Shown: in pieces, positions 1-49,281 of the stretch
How positions within the stretch are numbered: position 1 is the stretch's first letter
How the letters are laid out: each line of letters opens with the position of its first letter
Assembly (NCBI RefSeq): GCF_009720385.1
Contig: NZ_WARX01000026.1
Span: forward strand, 62,001 to 126,000
DNA length: 64,000 nucleotides
Source of the DNA: Catellatospora vulcania
GTDB lineage: Bacteria > Actinomycetota > Actinomycetes > Mycobacteriales > Micromonosporaceae
Direction of reading: 5' to 3'
Made by a program: the position numbers and the translations under genes
Notes under the pieces: generated by a model
Database searches by the model: none
Seen by the model: only the letters and a program-made list of their open reading frames with translations
Told to the model about the DNA's origin: nothing

Positions 1-506
1 CGGTCCCAGTCGGCGAGCGTCTCGACCAGCATGCCCGGCTCGGGCTCGAAGCCCGCCGCGACACCGCGCCCGGCGGCGTAGGCGGTCACCTCGGCGCAGC
101 CCTCGACGAGCAGCTGCCAGGCGACCTCGGCGGACACGTGCGTCGGGCGCACGCCCGCCCAGAACGACACCGCCTCGGCGTTGAGACCCGCCGCGATGTC
201 GATCGCGCGCTTGAGGAAGTCGACCCGCCGGGCGGCGTCGTCGTGCAGGAAGGTCGGCGCGTGCTTGCGCCGCGGGTCGAGCAGGTAACGCGCCCCGGTC
301 TCCACGACCACGGCCAGCTCGCGTTCGGCGAGCAGCCGCGCGGTGCGGGCGACCTGGTCTTTGACATCCGGGTCGTAGGGGTCGAGGTGCGCGTGGTCGA
401 GCGTCAGCGCGACGCCCGCGTAGCCCAGCTCGGCGATGACGTCGAGCGCGTCGGCCAGCCGGTGGTTGGCGAAGCCGTTGGTGCCGTAGCCGAAGCGCAG
501 GCTCAT
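1..506 (-). CDS. TIM-barrel sugar phosphate isomerase/epimerase, EboE-like (3' end beyond window)
   Basis: The gene starts at 506 (ATG) and runs off the left edge, leaving about 168 residues. The N-terminus MSLRFGYGTNGFANHRL, then 'ELGYAGVALTLDH', 'VVETGARYLLDPRRKHAPT' and 'GFEPEPGM', looks like the xylose-isomerase-like / AP-endonuclease-2 TIM barrel of sugar phosphate isomerases. The ATG overlaps the stop of the upstream UbiA gene (ATGA), so it is the third gene of a translationally coupled operon with inositol-3-phosphate synthase. A protein of this type follows the SCO3242-type prenyltransferase in other actinomycetes and resembles EboE of ebo clusters; this link is from family knowledge. 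The substrate is unknown. Confidence 0.75.
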   Translation of the reverse strand, partial: MSLRFGYGTNGFANHRLADALDVIAELGYAGVALTLDHAHLDPYDPDVKDQVARTARLLAERELAVVVETGARYLLDPRRKHAPTFLHDDAARRVDFLKRAIDIAAGLNAEAVSFWAGVRPTHVSAEVAWQLLVEGCAEVTAYAAGRGVAAGFEPEPGMLVETLADWD

Positions 507-1345
507 GTCGGGGACACCTTCCTCGCGAGCTTGGCCGCGGCCGGGGCGGCGGTCGCGATGGCAGCCCCGACCAGCGGTTTGCCGTGCCGTGCGATGAGCG
601 CGCCCTGCAGTGCGGGCAGCGAGGTGATGCCGGCCCCGACCGCGGCGCGCACCCGGCCCGCGTCGGGGTGGCGCAGCACCTCACGCTGTGCCTTGCCGAA
701 GCGTGTGGCGTACCAGCCGGCCAGCACCGCGGGCAGCCAGCCGCCGCTGCGGCCCGCGGCGTGCGTGGCCACGGCCGCGGTCGCGGTCATGGTCAGCGCG
801 GGCAGCACCCGGTCGGTGCCGCTGACCTCGCGCCGCGACAGCGCGGTGACGGCGTAGGTGTGGGCGGCGACGGCCAGCGCCGGGCGGGCGGCCTTGCGCA
901 GGTCGCCGGTGCTCGCGCCGAGCAGCACGTCCAGTCCCCGGCACAGCGCCATCCCGGCGGGCCCGGCCGGGGAGTTCTTCCACTTCACGTCGTAGGCCCA
1001 CACCGCCCCCGCGAGCAGCCCCGCGGTGGCCAGGGTGCGCTTGCCGCCGCTGGCCGCGGCCAGGGCCAGCCCGGCGACGGTGAGCCCGCCCGCGATGGCG
1101 AGCGCGGCCTCCGGGCTGATCCGCCCGGACGGGATGGGCCGCTCGGGTCGCTCGACGGCGTCGAGTTCGCGGTCGGCCCAGTCGTTGGCGGCCATGCCGC
1201 CCCAGTAGAGGCAGACCGAGGCGGCGGCGATGCCGGCGGTGCGCGCGTCCAGCGTGCCCGCGGCGGTCGCGCCCGCGACCGCGTCCCCCGGCACCGACAG
1301 CGCCGCCGGTGCGCGCACCAGTTGTGCCAGGTCACGCAGCTTCAT
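503..1345 (-). CDS. UbiA-like prenyltransferase, SCO3242/EboC type
   Basis: About 280 residues, very hydrophobic, with repeated Ala/Gly/Leu membrane segments. The first Asp-rich motif of the UbiA superfamily is intact (NDWADRELD, fitting NDxxDxxxD, around residue 60). The second acidic region is replaced by 'YDVKWKNSPAGPAGMALCRGLD', as I recall for SCO3242/EboC proteins. I start at ATG 1345 because it overlaps the stop of the inositol-phosphate synthase gene (ATGA); a longer frame upstream would lie inside that gene. UbiA enzymes move prenyl groups to acceptors in the membrane. In ebo clusters EboC is thought to help build or export an unknown small molecule. The acceptor here cannot be told from sequence. 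Confidence 0.8.
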   Translation of the reverse strand: MKLRDLAQLVRAPAALSVPGDAVAGATAAGTLDARTAGIAAASVCLYWGGMAANDWADRELDAVERPERPIPSGRISPEAALAIAGGLTVAGLALAAASGGKRTLATAGLLAGAVWAYDVKWKNSPAGPAGMALCRGLDVLLGASTGDLRKAARPALAVAAHTYAVTALSRREVSGTDRVLPALTMTATAAVATHAAGRSGGWLPAVLAGWYATRFGKAQREVLRHPDAGRVRAAVGAGITSLPALQGALIARHGKPLVGAAIATAAPAAAKLARKVSPT

Positions 1346-2547
1346 GACGGCTCTCCGGCCGGTTCGGCCCGCCCAGTGGGCGCGGCGCCGCCGGGCTGCT
1401 CGCCCGGCACGTCCGGGACGTCCCAGCCCTGGACCCATTCGCACAGGTCGACCCATTGCTCGGCGAGGCCGTGCGGGACCTGCCCGATCGGGTCCTTGAA
1501 GAAGAAGGCCAGCTCCGGCAGCGGGCCGGACCGGCCTTGGGCGTGGGCGGCGGCGGTGAGCCGGGCCAGGTCCAGCACCAGTGGCGCGGCCAGCGCGGAG
1601 TCGCAGCCGTGCCAGGTGAACTCGAGCCGCATCCGGCTGCCGAGGAAGCCGCTGAACGTGATGAGGTCCCAGGCGGTCTTCAGGTCCCCGATGTCAGGCA
1701 CGTAGTCGATGCGGGTGTGGCCCTCCGGCTCGTAGCCCAGGGTCTCCCGCAGCACCCGCTGCTTGCTGGCGACCTTGGCCGCGTTGGCCTCCGGCCGGGC
1801 CAGCGTCGCGCCGTCGCCGCCGCCCAGCAGGTTGGTGCCCGACCAGGAGCGCACGTGCAGGTTGCGCATCGCGAACATGGGCGCGAGCACCGACTTGAGC
1901 AGGGTCTCGCCGGTCTTGCCGTCGCTGCCCGCGTACGGCACGCCGTGCCGGGCCGCGAGCTGGTCGAGCGCGGGCAGCCGGGCTCCGGTCGACGGGGTGA
2001 AGTCGACGTAGGAGCAGCCCGCCGTGAACGCCGCGTACGCGTAGCGGGCGCTGGGCGGCAGCACCGCTTCGTGGTGCAGGGCTGCGGCGAGCGCGCTCGC
2101 GTCGGCGTGCGCCGGGTGGTCGGGCGGGATGGGCTCGGTCGAGGACACGTTGACCACGACGACGCGGGCGAGCCTGTGACGTTCGCGGAAGTCCACGAGA
2201 TCGGCGGCGATGCGGGTGATGGTGTCGTGCTGGGTCGGCCCGTCGGGGGCTTGGCGCACCTCGGGTTCGACGGTGGCCAGCTCGTCGGCGACGGCGGCGA
2301 CCACCGCCGCGGGCAGCACGCCGGCCGCGACGAGCGAGTGGGCCTTCTTCACCAGGGCCACACAGGACACGTCGTGGCCGCCGAAGACCAGATCGGACAG
2401 GGCCGGTAGCGCCGGGTGGCGCAGCGGGGGCAGTTCGGTGACGCAGCCGATGGGGTCGGCGAGCGAGGCCCGCACCGCCAGCGCGCCGACGATGCTGGTG
2501 ACCGCGACCGAGCCGCGGGCGCCGACGAGCCAGATTCCAGTACGCAC
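1342..2547 (-). CDS. inositol-3-phosphate synthase family protein
   Basis: 401 residues with an N-terminal Rossmann motif (GIWLVGARGSVA) and the family core blocks 'SGTNLLGGGDGATL', 'DYVPDIGDLKTAWDLITFSGFLG' and 'EFTWHGCDSALAAPLVLDLARL'. Inositol-3-phosphate synthase converts glucose-6-phosphate to inositol-3-phosphate using NAD. GTG at 2547 is the start, with AGGAGG six bases upstream. It heads a tightly coupled operon with a UbiA prenyltransferase and a TIM-barrel protein, so it probably serves a special product and not bulk phosphatidylinositol synthesis, for which actinomycetes usually carry a separate Ino1. The C-terminal ~25 residues are Pro/Gly-rich and not conserved. Confidence 0.85.
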   Translation of the reverse strand: MRTGIWLVGARGSVAVTSIVGALAVRASLADPIGCVTELPPLRHPALPALSDLVFGGHDVSCVALVKKAHSLVAAGVLPAAVVAAVADELATVEPEVRQAPDGPTQHDTITRIAADLVDFRERHRLARVVVVNVSSTEPIPPDHPAHADASALAAALHHEAVLPPSARYAYAAFTAGCSYVDFTPSTGARLPALDQLAARHGVPYAGSDGKTGETLLKSVLAPMFAMRNLHVRSWSGTNLLGGGDGATLARPEANAAKVASKQRVLRETLGYEPEGHTRIDYVPDIGDLKTAWDLITFSGFLGSRMRLEFTWHGCDSALAAPLVLDLARLTAAAHAQGRSGPLPELAFFFKDPIGQVPHGLAEQWVDLCEWVQGWDVPDVPGEQPGGAAPTGRAEPAGEPS

Positions 2548-2962
2548 AGGGCCTCCTGTAACGCGTTCGTGGCGGCCATATTAAATCTAGATCTGCAAAA
2601 GTTTCTAGATAGAAACCTGTACTTTTTTCTGATCAACCAAAAGTTTCGTGTGAATGAGCAAATCAGAGGGTCGTCGGGCGGAAAGTTGCCGAGGCAGCCT
2701 TCCCCTCACCCCGGCATTCCTATAGGATTCGACGTCGATAGATATCGGAGACGAGTTTCGGCGACCGGCTCCGGTTCGCGGGTGAGAACCCGGGAATGCC
2801 GTCAACAGGGCGTGCCCGCGCCCCGAGGACGCGTCATGTCTGGTCGCCGAACTTCCGCGTGGCCCCTCGCCCGCGCCGACGGCTGTCCGGACCAGCGCGC
2901 CTCACGGCGTCCGCCGGTCCGACCCCGCCCGCCGCGCTACCCTCTTCCAAGGAGCGAGTCAC
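2548..2962. promoter_or_regulatory. divergent intergenic region with AT-rich island (2576-2660)
   Basis: 415 bp separate the inositol-phosphate operon (leftward) from the ThuA gene (rightward). Positions 2576-2660 are markedly AT-rich for this genome and hold an inverted repeat GTTTCT-AGAT-AGAAAC at 2601-2616. This is the likely promoter/operator of the leftward operon. No convincing gene was seen in the gap; an open frame that crosses it has no family features. Confidence 0.4.
2601..2616. promoter_or_regulatory. inverted repeat, candidate operator of the inositol-phosphate operon
   Basis: Perfect 6-bp arms GTTTCT/AGAAAC around a 4-bp centre, about 55 bp upstream of the GTG start at 2547, inside the AT-rich island. 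The regulator is unknown. Confidence 0.35.
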
Positions 2963-4132
2963 ATGCGAAAACGCGTACTGTCCCTGGTCGCCGGACTGGC
3001 CACCGTCCTGGCGACGACGCTGTTCGCCCCGGCGACCCCCGCGTCGGCCGCGCCGCTGACCAAGGTGCTGGTCTTCTCCAAGACCGCCGGCTTCCGCCAC
3101 TCGTCGATCCCCAACGGCATCGCCGCGATCCAGACGCTCGGCAGCGCGAACGGCTTCACGGTGACCGCCACCGAGGACGCCAACCAGTTCACCGCGGCGA
3201 ACCTGGCCCAGTTCCAGGCCGTCATCTGGCTGTCGACGACGGGCGACGTGCTCAACGCCACCCAGCAGACGGCGTTCCAGAACTACATCGCCGCGGGCGG
3301 CGGCTACGTCGGCGTGCACGCCGCCTCCGACACCGAGTACGACTGGCCCTGGTACGGCGGCCTGGTCGGGGCGTACTTCCACTCCCACCCCGCCATCCAG
3401 AACGCCCAGCTGCGGGTCGAGCCGCCGGTCAACGCCTCGACGGCGCACCTGCCGGCCACCTGGACGCGCAGCGACGAGTGGTACAACTACCGGTCCAACC
3501 CCCGCTCGGCCGTGCGCGTGCTGATGAACCTCAACGAGGGCAGCTACACCGGCGGCAACATGGGCGACCACCCCATCACCTGGTGCCAGAACTACGGCGG
3601 CGGCCGGGCCTGGTACACCGGCCTCGGCCACACCGAGGCCAGCTACACCGACAGCAACTTCACCCGCATGCTGCTCGGCGGCATCCAGATCGCCGCCGGG
3701 GCGGTCACCGCCGACTGCTCGCCCGGCACGCCCCCGGCACCCGGGGTCAGCCTGCGCGCGCGGGCCAACAACAAGTTCGTCACCGCCCCCAGCGGCGGAG
3801 CCGGTGCGCTGATCGCCAGCGCGACCGCCGCGGGCAGCGCCGAGCGGTTCGAGATGATCGACCGGGGCGGCGGCAACATCGCGCTGCGAGCGCTGGTCAA
3901 CTCGCGTTACGTCTGCGCCGACAACGCGGGCGCGAACCCGCTCATCGCGAATCGGACCGCGATCGGCGGCTGGGAGACCTTCGCGCTGATCCGCAACTCG
4001 AACGGTTCGGTGAGTTTGCGGGCCCAGGCGAACGGGAAGTACGTCGTCGCGGAGAACGCCGGCGCGGCGGCACTGATCGCCAACCGGACGGCGATCGGCC
4101 CGTGGGAACAGTTCGACCTGGTCAGCCCCTAG
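2963..4132 (+). CDS. secreted ThuA-domain protein with C-terminal fascin-like beta-trefoil
   Basis: 389 residues. A Sec signal peptide (MRKRV, hydrophobic core, cut near ASA-AP at ~30) precedes a ThuA-like domain (about 33-250): 'KVLVFSKTAGFRHSSI', 'GGGYVGVHAASDTEYDW', 'GRAWYTGLGHTEASY'. ThuA-like domains have a class-I glutamine-amidotransferase-like fold and occur in sugar metabolism. Residues ~265-389 form three repeats of the type 'LRARANNKFVTA...LIASATA...ERFE', a fascin/RICIN-like beta-trefoil that probably binds carbohydrate. It fits the other secreted polysaccharide enzymes in the window. The catalytic role of secreted ThuA proteins is not established. Confidence 0.85.
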   Translation: MRKRVLSLVAGLATVLATTLFAPATPASAAPLTKVLVFSKTAGFRHSSIPNGIAAIQTLGSANGFTVTATEDANQFTAANLAQFQAVIWLSTTGDVLNATQQTAFQNYIAAGGGYVGVHAASDTEYDWPWYGGLVGAYFHSHPAIQNAQLRVEPPVNASTAHLPATWTRSDEWYNYRSNPRSAVRVLMNLNEGSYTGGNMGDHPITWCQNYGGGRAWYTGLGHTEASYTDSNFTRMLLGGIQIAAGAVTADCSPGTPPAPGVSLRARANNKFVTAPSGGAGALIASATAAGSAERFEMIDRGGGNIALRALVNSRYVCADNAGANPLIANRTAIGGWETFALIRNSNGSVSLRAQANGKYVVAENAGAAALIANRTAIGPWEQFDLVSP

Positions 4133-4269
4133 TCGGTGGGGGTCAGGCCGCCCGGTGAGACCGGGTGGCCTGGCCCTGTTTGGGATTTGTCACACAACTG
4201 TCATCGTTGCCAGGGTTATCTGCGCGCCGGGTGGGGAATTGACGCACTCACCGGCAAGGAGGTACCCAG

Positions 4270-4629
4270 GTGGAAGACATGGTCCCGGCGACCGCGGCAC
4301 AGGCAGTGCCGCTGGTCGAGGTGCAGGTGAAGGGCGACCTGGACGCGCAGTCCGCGCCCGAGGTGAACCGCCTTCTCGAACAGGCCCTGGCGCTGCGGCC
4401 GCAGCAGATCGTCGTCGACCTCGCCGACTGCGACACGATCGACGGAGCCGGCGTCCTGCTGCTGCTGGACGCCCACCGGCGGGCCGTGCGCGACGGCGGC
4501 GCCGTCGCCCTGCGCTCGCCGTCAGAGCGGGCCCGCCGGGTCCTGCGCCTGGCCAAGGTCGACCGGATCATGCAACTGCTGCCGTACGCGGTGGTGGAGC
4601 TGGCCCCGGCCGGGCCGGTGGTCGCGTGA
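4270..4629 (+). CDS. STAS-domain protein (anti-sigma factor antagonist-like) lacking the phosphorylatable serine
   Basis: 119 residues, one STAS domain. GTG at 4270 follows AAGGAGG by 7 bp. The SpoIIAA signature block D-S-S-G is D-G-A-G here ('DCDTIDGAGVLLLLDAH', ~60-75), so the serine phosphorylated by SpoIIAB-type kinases is an alanine. In SpoIIAA an S58A change mimics the unphosphorylated, anti-sigma-binding state (family knowledge), so this protein may be constitutively competent or regulated otherwise. Its stop overlaps the GTG of the next gene (GTGA), coupling it to a GT20-like protein. No anti-sigma kinase is adjacent. Confidence 0.85.
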   Translation: MEDMVPATAAQAVPLVEVQVKGDLDAQSAPEVNRLLEQALALRPQQIVVDLADCDTIDGAGVLLLLDAHRRAVRDGGAVALRSPSERARRVLRLAKVDRIMQLLPYAVVELAPAGPVVA

Positions 4630-6089
4630 CAGCCCGCTACGACCTGATCCTGGCCGGCGACCGGGTGCCCACCACCGACCCCGACGACAGCAGCGACCAC
4701 GTCGACGTCGCGCTGGCGTCGCTGCGCCCGTTCGTCGCCGCGCACGGCGGCGCGTGGGCGGCCGTGCCCGAGGACACCGGCTCACCCGACGCCGACGTGC
4801 TGCACGTCGAGGCCGGGGCCGGGGACGCCCGGCTGGGCGCGGGCCTGCTGCGCGCGCTGTACCACCACCAGCCGGCCGAGTTCCCGCCCGGCTGGTTCGA
4901 GCCGTACGAGCAGGCCAACACCGCCATCGCCGATGCCGTCGCCGGGTCCGCGGCGCTCGGCGGCACGGTCTGGGTGCACGGGCACCAGCTCCAGCTGCTG
5001 CCCCGATTGCTGCGCAAGCGGCGGCCCGACCTCGCCACCGCCGTGCACCTGCACAGCGCCTTCCCGCCCGCGGAGTCGTTCGCCCGGCTGCCCGAGCATC
5101 GTGAGCTGCTGTCCGGCCTGCTCGGCGCCGACGTCATCGCGCTGCCGCACCACCGCGCGGTGGACAACCTGCTCGACCTCGCCGGCCGCGTGCACGGGCT
5201 GCCCGTGCGCGACAACCAGATCGCCGTCGGCAACCACCGGGTGCGGGTGCTGGCCTGCGCGCTGCCCGCCGACACCGACGGCATGCGGCGGCTGGCCCGG
5301 CTGCCGCAGGTGCGCGAGCGCGCCTCGGAGGTCCGCGCCGCGCTGCGGGTCGGTGGACCGGTGCTGCTGTCGATCGCGGGCTGGGACCCGTCCGAGGCCG
5401 TCGAGCAGCGTCTGCACGCCTTCGAGCGCTTCCTCGCCGAGCACCGGCCCGAGCCCGCCACGGTCGCGCTCCTGCACGTGGCGTACGGCGACCCGCACAC
5501 CCCCGACGAGCTGGAGCAGCGGGAAAGGGTCGACCGCCTGATCGCGAAGATCAACGGTACGCACGCCAACGTGGGCCAGGCCGTCGTGCACTACGTACGC
5601 GACAACCCCGACCGGCGCGAGCTCGCGGCGCTGTACCTGGCCTGCGACGGCCTGCTGGCCACCCCGGTGCACCACGGCACCGTCAACCCGGCGCACGAGT
5701 TCGTCGCGGCGCGCGGCGAGCTGGGCGCGACCGTCGTGCTCAGCGAGCTGACCAGCGACGCCGCGGACGTGCCTGGGGCGATCGTGGTCAACCCGCACGA
5801 CACCGCCGCCTACGCCGAGGGCATCGCGACGGCCGTGGGCCTGTGCGGTCCCACCCCGCAGGTCCGTCCGGCGCCCGCCGAACACGGCCTGGACAGCTGG
5901 GCTCGGCACGTGCTCGCCGTGGTGCGCGCGCGTGCCTCGGTGGCCCCCGCCCCGGCGGCCGTACGCCCGCGGCGGGTGCCCGCCACACCCGGACACACCC
6001 GCCCAGCCGTCGCGGAACGCGCCGAGCATCTGGGCACGGCACCGGGCGGCACGCCCGGACGCACCGCGTCCCGGCCGGGACGGCCGTGA
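4626..6089 (+). CDS. GT20 (trehalose-6-phosphate synthase/OtsA-like) protein, probably catalytically impaired
   Basis: 487 residues from GTG 4626, which overlaps the STAS stop. GT20 landmarks are recognisable in order: 'DLILAGDRVP' (OtsA '..VSNR..'), 'GGTVWVHGHQLQLLPRLLRKRRPD' (OtsA 'WIHDYHL'), 'VHLHSAFPPAESFARLP' (OtsA 'LHIPFP'), 'AGWDPSEAVEQRLHAFERFL' (OtsA 'RLDYSKG...RF') and 'CDGLLATP...NPAHEFVAAR'. By eye, several OtsA active-site residues are changed: the Asp of WxHDYH is Gly, and the Arg and Lys of the RLDYSKG block are absent. The N-terminal glycine loop is not evident. The last ~50 residues are Pro/Arg-rich. It may have become a sugar-phosphate sensor or scaffold; this is inference from by-eye alignment. 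Confidence 0.75.
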   Translation: MTARYDLILAGDRVPTTDPDDSSDHVDVALASLRPFVAAHGGAWAAVPEDTGSPDADVLHVEAGAGDARLGAGLLRALYHHQPAEFPPGWFEPYEQANTAIADAVAGSAALGGTVWVHGHQLQLLPRLLRKRRPDLATAVHLHSAFPPAESFARLPEHRELLSGLLGADVIALPHHRAVDNLLDLAGRVHGLPVRDNQIAVGNHRVRVLACALPADTDGMRRLARLPQVRERASEVRAALRVGGPVLLSIAGWDPSEAVEQRLHAFERFLAEHRPEPATVALLHVAYGDPHTPDELEQRERVDRLIAKINGTHANVGQAVVHYVRDNPDRRELAALYLACDGLLATPVHHGTVNPAHEFVAARGELGATVVLSELTSDAADVPGAIVVNPHDTAAYAEGIATAVGLCGPTPQVRPAPAEHGLDSWARHVLAVVRARASVAPAPAAVRPRRVPATPGHTRPAVAERAEHLGTAPGGTPGRTASRPGRP

Positions 6090-6170
6090 GCCGGACGCTG
6101 TGACGTGAAGTCCGCCGTCCAGTGCAGACCCTGGACGGCGGGCGGCAACGGGAAGGAAAGCAGAGCCACC

Positions 6171-7214
6171 GTGACACCGATGCTCGACCAGTCGCAGCTG
6201 CTGCGCCGTGCGCACGGCTCCATGCTGATGGCGGCCCGCGCCGACCTGCTGGCCGCACCGCTGCACGACGCCACCATGCCGGATCCGGCCCAGGTCGAGG
6301 CGGTGCTGCGGGCCGGGCGCGGCAGGCAGCCGCAGCCCAGCGCGGCCGCGACCCAGCTGCTGATCCTCGCCGAGCACCTGGGCCGGTACGCGGGCCGGGT
6401 GCACGACGACGTGCTCGCCCTCGAACTGGCCCGGGAGTGGCCGGCGGACCGGCCCGAGCTGGCCGACACCGGCACGGCGCGGGTGCTGTCCGCGGTGCGC
6501 CGCGGCCTGCGCTGGTCGCAGGTGGCCCCGACGGTCCACGACGGACAGGGCAGCTTCGGCAGTGTCGCCGCGGTGCGGGCGGGGGCGGTGGGACTGCTGC
6601 CCGACGCGGGCATGGGCACGGTCGCCGCGCTGGCCCGCCGCACCGCCGGGATCACGCACACGCACCCGCTGGCCCGCGACGCGGCCGCCGCGACCGCCAC
6701 CGCGGTGGCCCTGGCGGCGCGCGGGCAGCCGCTGGCCGCCGCCGACAAGTACCACTTCCTCGACCTGGTCGCCGCGCAGCTGCGTACCAGCGAATTCAGG
6801 TCCGCGCTCGGCCAGGTGCAGACGCTGGTCCGGCACCGCAGCGCCCCGGCCGACGCGGCCGCCACCGTCGGTTCGGGACGCACCGCGCTGCGCTGCGTGC
6901 CCGCCGCCCTGACGGCGTTCCTGCGCCACCCCGACGACCCGGTCGCCGCCATCCGGTACGCGATGATGATGGGCGGGCAGGCCCGGACCGTGGCGACGAT
7001 CGTCGGCGCGGTCTGCGGAGCCCGCCACCCGGGGCACAGCCTGGCCGTGGCGGCCCGGCCCGACGTCACCCGCGGGCTGCGCATCCACGCCGCCGCTGCG
7101 GCGCTGGCCCGGCTGGCGACCGGCCGCCGACCCGCCGGGCTGCGGCGGGGCCGGCCCGAAGCCGGCCCCGTCCCGCAGCTCAGCCCCAGTTCTGGCCGGC
7201 GGGCTGGCGGGTGA
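6171..7214 (+). CDS. ADP-ribosylglycohydrolase-like pseudoenzyme (metal ligands lost)
   Basis: About 347 residues. Its shape follows the DraG/ARH family, but each metal-binding block is degenerate: GDALG is 'ARADLLAAP', the TDDTQ block is 'SAAATQLLILAEHLG', GNGxxMR is 'GQGSFGSVAAVRAGAVGLL', and GGDTDT is 'GGQARTVATIVGAVCGA'. The helical spacing and the 'THPLARDAA' region are kept, so the fold is probably intact without the dinuclear metal centre. It lies 81 bp after the GT20-like gene and in its direction. GTG 6171 was chosen because a GGAAGGAAAG stretch lies upstream; an earlier GTG (6105) and ATG 6180 are alternatives. The 3' end overlaps the convergent AhpD-like gene by 35 bp. An intact homologue occurs at 48328-49281. 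Confidence 0.75.
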   Translation: MTPMLDQSQLLRRAHGSMLMAARADLLAAPLHDATMPDPAQVEAVLRAGRGRQPQPSAAATQLLILAEHLGRYAGRVHDDVLALELAREWPADRPELADTGTARVLSAVRRGLRWSQVAPTVHDGQGSFGSVAAVRAGAVGLLPDAGMGTVAALARRTAGITHTHPLARDAAAATATAVALAARGQPLAAADKYHFLDLVAAQLRTSEFRSALGQVQTLVRHRSAPADAAATVGSGRTALRCVPAALTAFLRHPDDPVAAIRYAMMMGGQARTVATIVGAVCGARHPGHSLAVAARPDVTRGLRIHAAAAALARLATGRRPAGLRRGRPEAGPVPQLSPSSGRRAGG

Positions 7215-7774: not shown

Positions 7775-8653
7775 ATGCACGATCAGGACCGGCTGGCGGA
7801 ACGCTTCGAGCAGGACCGGGGACGGCTGCGCGCGGTGGCGCTGCGGATGCTCGGCTCCTCGGCCGAGGCCGACGACGCCGTACAGGAGGCCTGGCTGCGG
7901 CTGAGCCGCACCGACGTCGCCGAGGTCGGCAACCTCAGCGGCTGGCTGACCACCGTAGTCGGCCGGATCTGCCTGGACATGCTGCGCTCGCGCAGCACCC
8001 GCCGCGAGGACCTGCTCGACGACACCGCCGACGCCGACCTGCCCCCGCTCGGGGCCACGTCCACCGGAGCCGACCCCGAGCAGGAGGCGGTGCTGGCCGA
8101 CTCGGTCGGGCTCGCGCTGCTGGTCGTGCTCGACACGCTCACCCCCGCCGAGCGGCTGGCGTTCGTGCTGCACGACATGTTCGCCGTGCCGTTCGACGAG
8201 CTCGCCCCGGTCATCGGCAAGTCCCCCGACGCGGCCCGGCAGCTGGCCAGCCGCGCCCGCCGCCGGGTGCAGGGGCAGGCCCCGGCCGGCGAGGTCGACC
8301 AGGCCCGCCGACGCGAGGTCGTCGAGGCGTTCCTGTCCGCCGCCCGCGAGGGCCGCTTCGAGGCGCTGCTCGTCGCACTCGACCCCGACGTGGTGATGCG
8401 CGCCGACGCGACCGCCGTGTCCTACGGCTCCAAGGGCGAACTGCGCGGCGCGGACACGGTCGCCGGCTACTGGAACGGCCAGGCCGCCGAGGCGCGCACG
8501 GCACTGGTCGACGGCGTCGTCAACGCGGTCTGGGCACCGCGCGGCAAGGTGCGCGTGGTGCTGGCCTTCACCGTCGTCGACGGCCGCATCGCCGCCATCG
8601 ACCTCACCGCCGACAAGGACCGCCTCGCCGACCTGGACGTGTCGCTGCTCTGA
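7775..8653 (+). CDS. ECF RNA polymerase sigma factor, ECF41 (SigJ-like) with SnoaL-like C-terminal domain
   Basis: 292 residues. Sigma70 region 2 (~5-70: 'RLRAVALRMLGSSAEADDAVQEAWLRL') and region 4 (~110-165: 'LTPAERLAFVLHDMFAVPFDELAPVIGKSPDAARQLASRARRRV') are followed by a SnoaL_2-type domain (~180-290). This layout defines ECF41, in which the fused C-terminal domain replaces a separate anti-sigma factor and controls activity. ATG 7775 was chosen because GGGGAGG ends 10 bp upstream; ATG 7766 is too close to it. The divergent neighbour is the AhpD-like protein, and both genes carry ECF41-type promoters. No anti-sigma gene is nearby, as expected. Confidence 0.92.
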   Translation: MHDQDRLAERFEQDRGRLRAVALRMLGSSAEADDAVQEAWLRLSRTDVAEVGNLSGWLTTVVGRICLDMLRSRSTRREDLLDDTADADLPPLGATSTGADPEQEAVLADSVGLALLVVLDTLTPAERLAFVLHDMFAVPFDELAPVIGKSPDAARQLASRARRRVQGQAPAGEVDQARRREVVEAFLSAAREGRFEALLVALDPDVVMRADATAVSYGSKGELRGADTVAGYWNGQAAEARTALVDGVVNAVWAPRGKVRVVLAFTVVDGRIAAIDLTADKDRLADLDVSLL

Positions 8654-22341: not shown

Positions 22342-23934
22342 ATGGCCCGATTCAACTTCAAGGTGCGCGCCAACCGCCACGAACTCGACGACGTCAGCCT
22401 GGTCCGCCGGCTCGTCCCGCCGGCGTACGCCGAACGGGTGCCGCGGCAGTGGGTCACCGAGGAGCGCGCCCCGGCCTTCCCGCGCTCACCCCGGCTGGAG
22501 CTGTTCCTGCTGGCGGTGTCGCACATGGTCGGTAGCGACACCTTCTACGAGCGGTCCGCGGATCGCGACGCCCGCTTCCGCGAGCTGGTGCGCACCGTCG
22601 CGGTGACGGAGGCGGACTGGTTCGCGCGGTTCGTGCCGTGGCTGCGGACCGGCGCGATGCTGCGCTCGGCGTCGATCGTCGCGGCGCTGGAGGGTGCGCA
22701 CGCGCAGGTCGAGGCGGGCATTCCCGGCTCCCGCGCGGTGGTGGACAGCGCCCTGCAGCGTGCCGACGAGCCCGGCGAGGCGCTGGCGTACTGGCTGGCC
22801 AGGTACGGGCGGAGGCTGCCGAAGCCGGTCAAGCGCGGCGTCGCCGACGCCGTGCGCCGGCTCTACACCGAGCGGAGCCTGCTCAAGTACGACACCGAGA
22901 CGGCCCCGGTGCGCTTCGGCGACGTGGTCGAGCTGACCCATCCGGTGGCGGTCGCGCCGTGGCAGGGCGACCTGTTCCGGCACGCGGTCGACCGCCGCCA
23001 CGGCCGCGACCGGCCCGCGCCGGACTCACTGCCGACCGTGCGCGCCCGCGCGGAGCTGGCGGCGACACCGGTGGCGGACCGGCCGGCCGTCACCGACCCG
23101 GCGGTGCTGGCCAAGGCCGGAATGACCTGGGAGGCGCTGGCCGGCTGGCGGCAGTCCACCATGGACGCCGCGGCCTGGGAGTCGATCATCCCGAGCATGG
23201 GCTACCTCGCGCTGCTGCGCAACCTGCGCAATTTCGACGCGGCCGGGATCAGCGACAACGTCGCCGCGGCGGTCGCCGCCCGGCTGTCGGACCCGGGCGA
23301 GGTGGCGCGCTCGCGGGTGCTGCCGATGCGGTTCCTGTCGGCGCACCGCGCGGTGGGCCACCCGCGCTGGGCGTACCCGCTGGAACTGGCGTTGCAGCAC
23401 GCCCTGGCCGACGTGCCCGCGCTGGACGGCCGGGTGCTGGTCCTCATCGACACCTCGGGTTCGATGCAGTCGCAGTTCAGCAGGGACGGGAGCCTGCGGT
23501 ACTGGGACGCCGCGGCCGTGTTCGGCCTGGCGCTGGCCGCGCGGGCGGCCGAGCCCACGGTGGTGTCGTTCTCCAGCGGCGCCGCCGTGTTCCCGCGGGA
23601 GCCGGGCGAGTCGCTGCTGTCGGCGCTGCGGCGGTTCAAGGACGGCTACTTCTTCGGCGCGGGCACCGAGACCGAGCAGGCGCTCCGGCGCCACTACGAC
23701 GGCCACGACCGGGTGGTCATCCTGACCGACGAGCAGGCACGGTGGCACGGCGCACGCGACGTCGCCCACTCGGTGCCCGCCCGGGTGCCCGTGTACACCT
23801 GGAACCTGGCCGGCTACCGCCTTGGCCACACCCCGGCCGCCGGCAACCGGCACACCTTCGGCGGGCTGAGCGACGCCGCCTTCGCGATGATCCCGCTCGT
23901 GGAGGCGGGCGACAGCGACCGCTGGCCGTTCTGA
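22342..23934 (+). CDS. TROVE-domain protein (Ro60/Rsr homologue)
   Basis: 530 residues. ATG 22342 with GGGGGA upstream. The N-terminal ~340 residues are a HEAT-like TROVE ring: 'RLELFLLAVSHMVGSDTFYERSADRDARFRELVR', 'YWLARYGRRLPKPVKRGVADAV', 'WESIIPSMGYLALLRNLRNFDAAGI', 'RVLPMRFLSAHRAVG'. Residues ~360-530 are a von Willebrand A domain with MIDAS 'LIDTSGSMQ' and 'ILTDEQA'. Ro60/Rsr binds Y RNAs and misfolded RNAs and helps RNA quality control with PNPase. No Y-RNA or RtcB gene was identified beside it. A Rossmann-fold protein follows 104 bp downstream. Confidence 0.93.
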   Translation: MARFNFKVRANRHELDDVSLVRRLVPPAYAERVPRQWVTEERAPAFPRSPRLELFLLAVSHMVGSDTFYERSADRDARFRELVRTVAVTEADWFARFVPWLRTGAMLRSASIVAALEGAHAQVEAGIPGSRAVVDSALQRADEPGEALAYWLARYGRRLPKPVKRGVADAVRRLYTERSLLKYDTETAPVRFGDVVELTHPVAVAPWQGDLFRHAVDRRHGRDRPAPDSLPTVRARAELAATPVADRPAVTDPAVLAKAGMTWEALAGWRQSTMDAAAWESIIPSMGYLALLRNLRNFDAAGISDNVAAAVAARLSDPGEVARSRVLPMRFLSAHRAVGHPRWAYPLELALQHALADVPALDGRVLVLIDTSGSMQSQFSRDGSLRYWDAAAVFGLALAARAAEPTVVSFSSGAAVFPREPGESLLSALRRFKDGYFFGAGTETEQALRRHYDGHDRVVILTDEQARWHGARDVAHSVPARVPVYTWNLAGYRLGHTPAAGNRHTFGGLSDAAFAMIPLVEAGDSDRWPF

Positions 23935-24038: not shown

Positions 24039-25505
24039 ATGGCATCATCCGGGGTCGTCTTCCCCGTCAGCACCGGCACCGAGCGCAGCACGTCCGCGCT
24101 GGGCAGGGCCGTGGTCGCCGACGCGCTGCGGCCGGTCGACCCCGTCGGAGCCCGCGCGGCCGAACACGAGACGAACTGGCGCGCCGATTACCTGGTGCAC
24201 TTCCGGCGGTTGGTGGAGGCGGGGCTGATCTCCGGCGACGCCGCGCGCAGCAGTGCCGCAGCCGGGCTGGCCTCGCTGCACGACCGTATGCGGGTGGTCA
24301 CCGAGGACGGCGAGACCGGCCTGCGGGCGGCGTTCGAGCGCAAGCCGGACCGGTCCGCGGAGCTGGGCACGGTGACCGTCGGCGGCGACGGCGACACCGA
24401 CCGTGAGCTGTCCCTGCCGTACCGGGGCGAGCGGCTGCGCGGCGACGCGCTGGCCCGGCAGCTGGACGCGTGGGTCGCCGCCGGGGTCGTCGAGCCGAGC
24501 TGCGCGGAGGCGGTGCGCGCGGTGATGGCGAACCCGGACTGGCTGAACCTGTCCGACGTTCGGGTGGTGGCGCTGGGCGCGGGCGCGGAGATGGGGCCGA
24601 CGCATTCGCTGCTGCGCTGGGGCGGCGAGGTCGTCGCCGTCGACCTGCCGCGCCCGCAGCTGTGGCGCAACCTGCTGGAGACCGCCCGGCGGTACGGCGG
24701 CAGGCTGCGCATCCCGGTCGCCGCTTCCCGCCGCGACCACGCGGACCTGGCCGAGGTCGCCGGCGCGGACCTGCTGCACCAGCTGCCCACCGTCGCGGAC
24801 TGGCTGCTCGGGGTGGACGGCCGGCTGGTCGTCGGCAACTACGTCTACGCCGACGGGGCGACCAACCTGCGGGTCTGCGCCGCGGTGGACGCCCTGACCG
24901 AGCACCTGCGCGGGCAGCGCCCGGACACGGCGCTGGCGTTCCTGGCCACCCCGACGGACGTGTTCGCCGCGCCGGGCGAGGCCGTCGCGCAGGCGGACGA
25001 GAAGTACCGGCAGCCCTCGACGCTGCGCACCCTGCGCGGGCCGCTGCGGTTCGTGTCGGCGGGTCGGCTGCTGCGGCGCAACTACCCGCCCGAAGCCGAC
25101 CCGGGCATCTGCGACAGTCTCGTGGCGCAGCAGGGCCCGAACTATGCGCTGGCCAAGCGGCTGCAGCGGTGGCGGGCGGCGGTGGCCCGGCACGAGGGCG
25201 CGACGGTCAGTTTCAAGGTCGCGCCGCCGACGCGTACCCGCTCGGTGGTGAAGAACCGGGTGCTGGCCGCGGCGTACGCGGGCGCGCCGGCGTTCGGGGT
25301 GGAGGTGTTCGAGCCGGCCACGTCCAACACGCTGATGGCCGCACTGCTCGTGCACGACCTGCGCAATCCCCCGCCGGTGCGCGAGCACGTGTGGCAGGAG
25401 GAGGCCCAGGGCGCGGCGCACGGCGGGCTGTGGCGGATGCCGTACGCCCCGCGTAGCGCCCTCGGCCTGGCGGCCCTGCTCGGCCTGGGCGGCGCACGCA
25501 ACTGA
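24039..25505 (+). CDS. unrecognised Rossmann-fold (dinucleotide/SAM-like) protein next to TROVE
   Basis: 488 residues; ATG 24039 follows AAGGAG by 9 bp. A glycine-rich nucleotide-binding motif 'VRVVALGAGAEMGPTHSLLRWGGEVVAVDLPRPQLW' (~168-205) resembles the first half of a SAM- or NAD-binding fold with the acidic end of strand 2 (VDL). Later 'QLPTVADWLLGVDGRLVVGNYVYADGATNLRV' and a basic helix region 'YALAKRLQRWRAAVARHEG'. I do not recognise the family. It lies 104 bp after the TROVE gene and may be an RNA-linked or unrelated metabolic protein. Confidence 0.7.
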   Translation: MASSGVVFPVSTGTERSTSALGRAVVADALRPVDPVGARAAEHETNWRADYLVHFRRLVEAGLISGDAARSSAAAGLASLHDRMRVVTEDGETGLRAAFERKPDRSAELGTVTVGGDGDTDRELSLPYRGERLRGDALARQLDAWVAAGVVEPSCAEAVRAVMANPDWLNLSDVRVVALGAGAEMGPTHSLLRWGGEVVAVDLPRPQLWRNLLETARRYGGRLRIPVAASRRDHADLAEVAGADLLHQLPTVADWLLGVDGRLVVGNYVYADGATNLRVCAAVDALTEHLRGQRPDTALAFLATPTDVFAAPGEAVAQADEKYRQPSTLRTLRGPLRFVSAGRLLRRNYPPEADPGICDSLVAQQGPNYALAKRLQRWRAAVARHEGATVSFKVAPPTRTRSVVKNRVLAAAYAGAPAFGVEVFEPATSNTLMAALLVHDLRNPPPVREHVWQEEAQGAAHGGLWRMPYAPRSALGLAALLGLGGARN

Positions 25506-48327: not shown

Positions 48328-49281
48328 ATGACCACCGGAAGATCGGACCGGGTGGCCGGCGCGCTGCTCGGCGTGCACGCCGGGGATGCGCTCGGCGCGA
48401 CCGTCGAGTTCGACTCCTGGGAGTACATCCGGTTTCGTTACCCGGACGGCATCCGGGAGATCGTGGGCGGCGGCGTGTTCGAGTGGCCGCCCGGCCACGC
48501 CACCGACGACACGGACCTGACCCGTGCCGTCGCACTGGCCTATCTGGACCCCGGCGACGATGTGGTGCTGTCCGCTGCCCGCCTGATGCTGAGCTGGTAC
48601 GAGGGCGACTGGCCCGGCCGCGAACCCGGCCGCCCGCCCGTGGATGTCGGCGGTGCGACCGAGGACGGGCTGCGCGCGTTCGCCCGCACCGGCGATCCGG
48701 ACACCTGCGGCGCGGGTCCCGGCCGGGCCGGCAACGGCTCGCTGATGCGCTGCATCCCGACCGCGCTCGCGGTCCGCGACCGCGACCGGCGGATCCGGGA
48801 GTCGATGCGCATCTCCGCGGTCACCCACTCCGACGCTCGGTGCACCGTCGCCTGCGCCGCGTACAACGAGATCGTCGCCGCGCTGGTCGAGGGCGTCCCA
48901 CCGGCGGACGCCGTGGCGATCGGCGCGGCCATCGCGCGCGAGCTGGACAACCGGGACGTGGCGGACGCGATCGCGCTAGGCGAGCGGCTGGACCTGGCCG
49001 AACTCTCCCGGACCGGCGTGACCGGCCTGCCCGACGACGGCAACGGGTACGTGCTCGACTCGCTGGCGCTGGCGGTCGCCGCCGTGCTCGACTTCCGTGC
49101 CCTGCCGGACGTGTTGATCGACATCGTGGCCCTGGGCAACGACAGCGACACCAACGCGGCGATCGCGGGCGGGCTGCTGGGCGCCCGCGACGGTGTTTCG
49201 TCCATCCCGGACGGCTGGCTGTCGCCGCTGCAGTTCAGGGCCGAGTTCACCGACCTGGCCGCGAAGTTCTACCAACCCTGA
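48328..49281 (+). CDS. ADP-ribosylglycohydrolase family protein (intact motifs)
   Basis: 317 residues, ATG 48328. The metal-binding motifs are present: 'HAGDALGATVEF' (GDALG, ~18), 'TDDTDLTRAVALAYL' (TDDT), 'GNGSLMRCIPTALA', 'SDARCTVACAAYNEI' and 'NDSDTNAAIAGGLLGARDGVSSIP' (Mg ligands). DraG/ARH enzymes hydrolyse ADP-ribose from proteins (for example dinitrogenase reductase) or small ADP-ribosyl compounds. Target unknown. Compare the degenerate relative at 6171-7214. Confidence 0.9.
   Translation: MTTGRSDRVAGALLGVHAGDALGATVEFDSWEYIRFRYPDGIREIVGGGVFEWPPGHATDDTDLTRAVALAYLDPGDDVVLSAARLMLSWYEGDWPGREPGRPPVDVGGATEDGLRAFARTGDPDTCGAGPGRAGNGSLMRCIPTALAVRDRDRRIRESMRISAVTHSDARCTVACAAYNEIVAALVEGVPPADAVAIGAAIARELDNRDVADAIALGERLDLAELSRTGVTGLPDDGNGYVLDSLALAVAAVLDFRALPDVLIDIVALGNDSDTNAAIAGGLLGARDGVSSIPDGWLSPLQFRAEFTDLAAKFYQP

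Follow-up and report, generated by a model that had tools for sequence, protein, structure and literature searches.

Why should three neighbouring genes each encode a protein of a well-known family from which the residues central to that family have been lost? The question is raised by a 64,000-nucleotide stretch of the genome of the soil bacterium Catellatospora vulcania (contig NZ_WARX01000026.1, positions 62,001 to 126,000 of the forward strand), referred to here as the window. Within this 8.83-Mb genome the three genes lie in one direction and encode a STAS domain protein (STAS-A), a protein resembling OtsA of glycosyltransferase family 20 (the GT20-like protein), and a protein resembling ADP-ribosylglycohydrolases (the ARH-like protein). 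All three match their Pfam families above cut-off, STAS at 52.8 bits, Glyco_transf_20 at 201 bits and ADP_ribosyl_GH at 114 bits. A preliminary description of this DNA had noted the shared direction and the GTGA overlap of the first two genes, both of which hold (4626-4629), and had suggested a sensing or scaffold complex that reads sugar phosphates or ADP-ribose to control a sigma-factor partner.

The triple looks like a set of working signalling parts rather than dying genes, because it is kept together by relatives, is held by selection and shares an upstream element with a two-component system. The explanation we favour, to which we assign a probability of about one half, is that the triple is an orphan copy of a conserved module, namely a STAS operon under two-component control in which dead enzymes serve as non-catalytic partners. 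The earlier interpretation is partly supported; it missed the shared direct repeat and the two-component system.

Loss of key residues in the three proteins

The GT20-like protein was aligned with OtsA of M. thermoresistibile (MtrOtsA), the residue roles being those given in the excerpted text of PMC6879718. Three donor-site residues are replaced (Arg286 by G252, Lys291 by E257 and Asp385 by H350), as is the acceptor residue Asp144 (G119), and these agree with the earlier remark that OtsA active-site residues had changed. Glu393 (E358), Arg365 (R330), Gln146 (Q121) and the active-site His (H143) are retained, leaving one of the four residues of the donor set Arg286/Lys291/Asp385/Glu393. Tyr90 and Arg324 fall in gapped regions of the alignment and are not counted among the losses, and Arg18 and Gly39 were left unmapped. 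The OtsA equivalog score is 186 bits against a cut-off of 565. The same losses recur in the 16 degenerate rows of a wider alignment (A1), where the Arg286 position holds Gly in 15 rows and Asp in one, the Lys291 position is Glu or Asp throughout, and the Asp385 position is His in 14 rows and Asp in two; the four intact OtsA rows carry R, K and D at these positions. Only two of the 16 (L078 and L085) retain Asp144 together with Asp385.

As judged from the aligned proteins, the depth of this loss varies by lineage. In the g42 protein Asp144 and Asp385 remain and Arg286 and Lys291 do not. The g31 protein retains Arg286 and Asp144 and has Glu in place of Lys291 and Ala in place of Asp385, and in g39 none of the three donor residues is left and the active-site His is replaced as well. 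Both GT20 proteins of g44 have His for Arg286, and Lys291 and Asp385 are each retained in one of the two. In the GT20 tree the degenerate proteins of Catellatospora, G103 (g31), g17/g19 and g39 share one side of a branch with 99/96 support, the g44 and G033 proteins branch next, and g42 is not included. A single origin is not secure in a tree with such long branches, and we do not rely on it. Three further GT20 matches occur elsewhere in the same genome, at 35-38% identity.

The AlphaFold model of the GT20-like protein has a mean pLDDT of 81, and its best Foldseek match is OtsA 5k44 (E 3.5e-33, TM 0.77/0.81), so that the GT-B fold of GT20 is predicted to be kept. Displacement of the active site to shifted positions, which the preliminary description had named as an outcome that would refute it, is ruled out by sequence alignment for this protein and for the ARH-like protein alike, and its view of conserved folds with missing chemistry agrees with the predicted structures of both.

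The phosphosite region of STAS-A in the window reads D58-G59-A60-G61 and places Gly59 at the serine of the D-S-x-G motif, which we take to be the phosphosite in the place it has in SpoIIAA. A Ser to Ala change had been described here. The loss of the serine stands; the residue is Gly in the window, and Ala is what most relatives carry. Among 18 aligned STAS-A proteins, the window included (A3), the position is Ala in 16, Gly in one (the window) and Val in one, and never Ser or Thr; it is also Ala in all 19 STAS-A matches of at least 68 bits at loci L135-L154. When the STAS domains of the same genome were read by eye, 12 of 20 had Ser or Thr at this position and eight had another residue, so the loss in STAS-A is by itself unremarkable. 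STAS-A passes the cut-off of the anti-sigma-antagonist superfamily (TIGR00377, 56.9 bits against 53.45). A further stretch of the protein, H69-R70-R71, is conserved.

The acidic metal ligands of ARH3 are Asp77, Asp78, Asp314 and Asp316 according to the excerpted text of PMC8141533. In the alignment T76-D77-D78 becomes S57-A58-A59 in the ARH-like protein and D314/D316 become Q270/R272, whereas T317 is retained as T273; the claim that every metal-ligand motif is degraded is accurate for the four acidic ligands and not for this threonine. The GxGSxG loop and the THxH motif, which we take to be ADP-ribose contacts in ARH3, are conserved despite the loss of the metal ligands. The model has a mean pLDDT of 84 and ARH3 6g1p as its best Foldseek match (E 3e-12), so the ADP-ribosylglycohydrolase fold is likewise predicted to be kept. 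The genome's remaining four ARH matches have an intact TDDT motif, and one of these four proteins is encoded in the window (48352-49281).

Conservation of the triple and selection

In six Catellatospora genomes, that of the window and those of L067-L071, the triple is found at the corresponding position with its order kept, and a profile scan of contigs saw the locus in C. paridis, C. sichuanensis, C. methionotrophica and C. bangladeshensis. With the related operons at paralogous loci and in other genera, this conservation meets the second challenge set by the preliminary description, which would have been refuted had relatives not kept the order. Over 15 pairs for each gene among the six genomes, the mean ratio of nonsynonymous to synonymous substitution rates (dN/dS) is 0.24 for STAS-A, 0.23 for the GT20-like gene and 0.18 for the ARH-like gene; for five flanking genes the values span 0.08 to 0.28. 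All three genes are thus under purifying selection in these genomes, which argues that the triple is not decaying. Three further genomes of the genus (G016, G118 and G133) gave no close match to either the GT20-like or the ARH-like protein, save a piece in G118 (G118:C2:2657236-2657418) of 62 residues with 67% identity to the ARH-like protein, in a genome with neither the repeat described below nor a STAS-A match at 1e-12.

The idea that the triple is unique to this locus was rejected, since paralogous and other-genus versions exist. Two paralogous loci (L073 and L074) hold an operon of STAS-A, dead GT20, dead ARH and a second STAS gene (STAS-B) with 4-nt overlaps, and in L072, L073, L074 and L077 the dead GT20 has as its neighbour an OtsA whose donor residues are intact. 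The GT20 gene overlaps that of STAS-A in g1, g17, g19 and g39; in g31, g42 and g44 the two stand side by side. Outside the genus, a GT20 protein with donor residues lost to differing depths stands beside STAS-A in g17, g19, g31, g39, g42 and g44. The same neighbourhood in g22 (L206) has STAS-A and two-component genes next to an OtsA in which every tested residue is intact, with no strict repeat, and in L189-L192 the locus has a STAS gene and no GT20. At E 1e-12 the STAS-A profile has matches in 93 of the 397 genomes examined at the level of the order and in 19 of 396 at the level of the phylum, although many of these matches are weak and may be other STAS proteins. Genes in the compared loci were called with a simple script, and small genes and start positions may be wrong.

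A direct repeat shared with a two-component system

A direct repeat of the form TGTCA-N6-TGTCA precedes 26 of 37 STAS-A genes at 44-129 bp (one at 185 bp), in a count that leaves out ten lower-scoring second STAS genes. The selected loci (732 kb) contain 54 repeats, of which 51 lie within 700 bp of a STAS, response regulator, ARH or GT20 gene. Sixty letter permutations of the pentamer gave a median count of 0 in the same 732 kb, the next highest count, 11, being that of GTCAT, a shifted reading of the same motif. These loci were picked for holding such genes, and whole genomes are the fair test. In the genome of the window, TGTCANNNNACTGTCA occurs exactly twice, at the triple and before an operon at C27 (L066) that encodes STAS-A, a GT20-like protein, a response regulator, a histidine kinase and a lipoprotein. 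Across 11 genomes of the genus TGTCAYNNNACTGTCA has 40 sites against five for the reversed control, and all 40 (35 placed in loci that were read and five by coordinate comparison) are within 700 bp of a STAS, GT20, ARH or response regulator gene of the system. Nine of the 11 genomes hold both the site and STAS-A; G118 and G133 hold no site and no STAS-A match at 1e-12. Among 150 genomes of the family, sites are present in 60 and a STAS-A match in 67.

The element thereby links the triple to an OmpR-type response regulator, a HAMP/HisKA histidine kinase and a Germane-domain lipoprotein, for which C27 holds the copy of this genome. The best NCBIfam matches of the regulator are CseB (230 bits, cut-off 350) and MtrA (216, cut-off 300), and that of the kinase is MtrB (212, cut-off 450); scores so far below the equivalog cut-offs indicate that the system is probably a separate group from CseB/CseC and MtrA/MtrB. 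Regulators of the other loci in a 12-locus alignment (A7) are 79-86% identical to the C27 copy. Regulator copies of at least 440 bits number 15 and occur in exactly the nine genus genomes with the element, and all 15 are behind an element by their coordinates, directly or through an operon; the two genus genomes without the element have only a 397-bit paralog. Beyond the family, STAS-A stands next to the same regulator, kinase and lipoprotein genes in families f10 (L151, L152) and f13 (L149, L150). Co-occurrence and position give the regulon good support, and the response regulator would be the protein that binds the repeat.

Variants of the arrangement were also seen. In two of the paralogous clusters a second degenerate ARH-like gene has its own upstream repeat (L072, 16962-17915; L074, 12497-13459). 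In other genera (L238, L239, L240, L247, L251, L252) the same regulator and the repeat face a gene for a small hydrophobic, membrane-like protein, and a STAS with the classical phosphosite (D-S-A-G) was read in L239, L240 and L251; this arrangement is possibly an older form of the system. A further spelling, TGTCATCGAACTGTCA (L245, 5352, and the same spelling elsewhere), occurs in seven g4 genomes and one g12 genome, and the copy read precedes a gene without a match to the profiles of the system.

Proposed mechanism and alternatives

Under the orphan-module explanation, the C27 OmpR-type regulator would bind the TGTCA-N6-TGTCA repeat and control a STAS-centred operon. Lacking a phosphoacceptor, STAS-A is probably regulated by the amount made and would not be set by an RsbW-type kinase. 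Its non-catalytic binding partners would be the dead GT20, which is co-translated with it, and the dead ADP-ribosylglycohydrolase; they would be partners of STAS-A, and of STAS-B in the sister loci, and the resulting cytosolic complex may bind or sequester a downstream target. A more specific version, which we hold more tentatively, makes these pseudoenzymes the dedicated output of the system, so that a Micromonosporaceae two-component system turns on a STAS scaffold, a dead OtsA and a dead ADP-ribosylglycohydrolase that form a phosphorylation-independent complex.

Several observations weigh against the proposal. The parts are not strictly interdependent, since, of the eight genus genomes whose locus was read, two (L083 and L084) have STAS-A and the GT20-like gene there without the ARH-like gene, and L195 lacks STAS-A. 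Eleven of the 37 STAS-A genes have no strict repeat upstream, and in the genome of the window the reversed control pattern also has two matches, so that position and not number is the evidence there. The 87 sites outside the genus are more dispersed: a STAS-A match lies no more than 1 kb away for 26 of them and no more than 15 kb away for a further 12, and the other 49 are more distant. These distances were measured with 67 STAS-A matches, and the addition of 29 weaker ones changes nothing. Sixteen loci that cover 18 of the 49 far sites were read (chosen, not random), and eight were beside the same two-component genes and eight were not, one of the latter (L241) being near a different two-component pair. 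The element has also been lost from this locus in C. methionotrophica (L070): the repeat region before STAS-A is missing (6200-6238), and with an intergenic gap of 37 bp the operon may be read there from the ThuA-family gene. Finally, no downstream target was found.

Yeast Tps3 and Tsl1 are thought to tune trehalose synthesis, and the dead GT20 might in like manner hetero-oligomerise with the real OtsA of the genome, with STAS-A and the dead hydrolase adjusting the tuning. We consider this account unlikely, though it deserves some weight. The intact OtsA genes that adjoin the dead GT20 in the four paralogous loci speak for it, as does the intact OtsA of L206 beside STAS-A and two-component genes, and according to the abstract of PMC3634074 an archaeal trehalose-phosphate synthase is activated in a complex by a co-expressed glycosyltransferase. 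No OtsA gene adjoins the window locus, however, and the STAS loci without GT20 make trehalose unlikely as the core function. The complex proposed in the preliminary description, in which the two folds serve as binding sites for a sugar phosphate or ADP-ribose and their state is relayed through STAS to a sigma-factor partner, appears rather doubtful. STAS-A does score above the anti-sigma-antagonist cut-off, the GxGSxG and THxH motifs persist, and the GT20 pocket retains its His and Glu. Against this, a nucleotide-sugar diphosphate should fit poorly in a donor site where, as in the 16 degenerate rows, Lys has given way to Glu or Asp and Arg to Gly or Asp, and the acidic residue that replaces the donor Lys in every one of them makes it unlikely that UDP-glucose or trehalose-6-phosphate is read in the normal donor site. 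In ARH3, D314A lowers the affinity for ADP-ribose 44-fold (excerpt of PMC8141533). No sigma-factor partner emerged either: no sigma or anti-sigma gene was identified as a recurring part of the module loci, where selected genes were examined through Pfam and anti-sigma kinases (HATPase_c_2) were not searched systematically, and the extracytoplasmic function (ECF) sigma gene three genes downstream of the triple (7775-8653) carries no repeat.

Retained predicted folds under purifying selection would also be expected of enzymes whose residues have changed for another substrate, as in VldE within GT20. We see only a slim chance of this, because the side chains that bind the donor ribose-diphosphate hardly differ between VldE and the OtsA proteins of E. 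coli and S. venezuelae (excerpt of PMC5247666), whereas here the Arg, Lys and Asp of that site are lost, and because two unrelated folds lose their chemistry in one operon. That the genes are functionless and decaying is very improbable. Parts are missing in some genomes, and the closest hydrolase-like match of G118 is the 62-residue piece mentioned above, but the dN/dS values of the six orthologs fall within the range of the flanking genes, and the frames are full-length, with conserved overlaps and a conserved upstream element. Decay without function is contradicted by dN/dS as a general account.

If the more specific version, with pseudoenzymes as the dedicated output, is true, partner switching by phosphorylation would have been replaced by partner switching by abundance, and two unrelated metabolic folds would have been recruited as binding modules. 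A STAS protein lacking its phosphosite and two dead enzymes unrelated to each other, co-inherited, often translationally coupled and sharing one upstream element with a two-component system, make a compact and testable case of dead-fold signalling. Other states survive in relatives (STAS with Ser, STAS beside intact OtsA, differently degraded GT20 proteins), from which the order of events may be reconstructed, and the repeat offers an immediate handle on a small regulon. We found no description of such a module in the open-access literature, subscription papers being outside the search, and no study of this response regulator.

Features of the locus

The features of the triple are collected in Table 1. 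The gap between the GT20-like and ARH-like genes is 81 bp. Upstream of the triple (503-4132) are genes for a UbiA-type prenyltransferase, a myo-inositol-phosphate-synthase-like protein and a ThuA-family protein, which are kept in L067-L071, L083 and L084. The 3' end of the ARH-like gene overlaps a convergent CMD-family gene by 35 bp (7180-7214), as it does in the five orthologous loci L067-L071. Farther along the window a TROVE-domain (Ro60-like) protein (22342-23934) is followed by a 488-residue protein without a Pfam match at E 0.001 (24039-25505). Rfam found no RNA at gathering score within the window, and scans for promoter and terminator consensus sequences were uninformative.

Table 1. 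Positions in the window of the three genes and their associated signals
Feature	Position	Strand	Basis
Direct-repeat element TGTCACACAACTGTCA (TGTCA-N6-TGTCA, pitch of 11 bp), putative site of the response regulator, 82 bp upstream of STAS start	4188..4203	+	
Likely ribosome-binding site of STAS gene, AAGGAGGT	4256..4263	+	sequence
STAS-A protein gene, 119 aa, phosphosite Ser replaced by Gly59	4270..4629	+	gene call, Pfam, NCBIfam, alignment
GTGA start/stop overlap of STAS-A and GT20-like genes	4626..4629	+	sequence; overlapping pair also in paralogs and other genera
Degenerate GT20 (OtsA-fold) protein gene, 487 aa, donor Arg/Lys/Asp lost	4626..6089	+	gene call, Pfam, alignment, predicted structure
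Degenerate ADP-ribosylglycohydrolase-fold (ARH-like) gene, 347 aa, four acidic metal ligands all lost	6171..7214	+	gene call, Pfam, alignment, predicted structure
Possible alternative starts of ARH-like gene	6105, 6180	+	

Comparison with known systems

Judged by fold, the three proteins fall within the STAS antagonist, OtsA and ARH families; judged by key residues, they do not. The GT20-like protein has the same predicted GT-B fold as OtsA and the pseudo-glycosyltransferase VldE, with a weak sequence match to VldE, and differs from OtsA in the donor and acceptor residues listed above. The ARH-like protein shares the predicted all-helical fold of ARH3 and other ADP-ribosylglycohydrolases and differs in its four acidic ligands and its operon context; the vertebrate relative ADPRHL1 is presumably a parallel. 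STAS-A has its domain in common with the anti-sigma factor antagonists SpoIIAA and RsbV and reaches their superfamily cut-off, but the phosphosite serine of those proteins is missing from all aligned STAS-A rows. The TPSP-GT system of Thermoproteus tenax is a prokaryotic precedent for a trehalose-phosphate synthase in complex with a co-expressed glycosyltransferase; the abstract of PMC3634074 names no STAS protein and no two-component control, and the synthase there gains activity in the presence of the glycosyltransferase.

On the regulatory side, CseB/CseC and MtrA/MtrB provide the best NCBIfam matches of the regulator and kinase, which are followed here by a Germane-domain lipoprotein. The closest described arrangement is that of AfsQ1/AfsQ2 with the divergent sigQ gene in Streptomyces, in which a response regulator and kinase are divergent from their target gene, as they are in relatives of the window locus. 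The AfsQ1 site is GTnAC-n6-GTnAC (excerpt of PMC6988585), and the box found here, GTCAC/T-n6-GTCAT/C, has the same spacing. The likeness is one of arrangement, and in these relatives the place of sigQ is taken by a STAS gene or operon.

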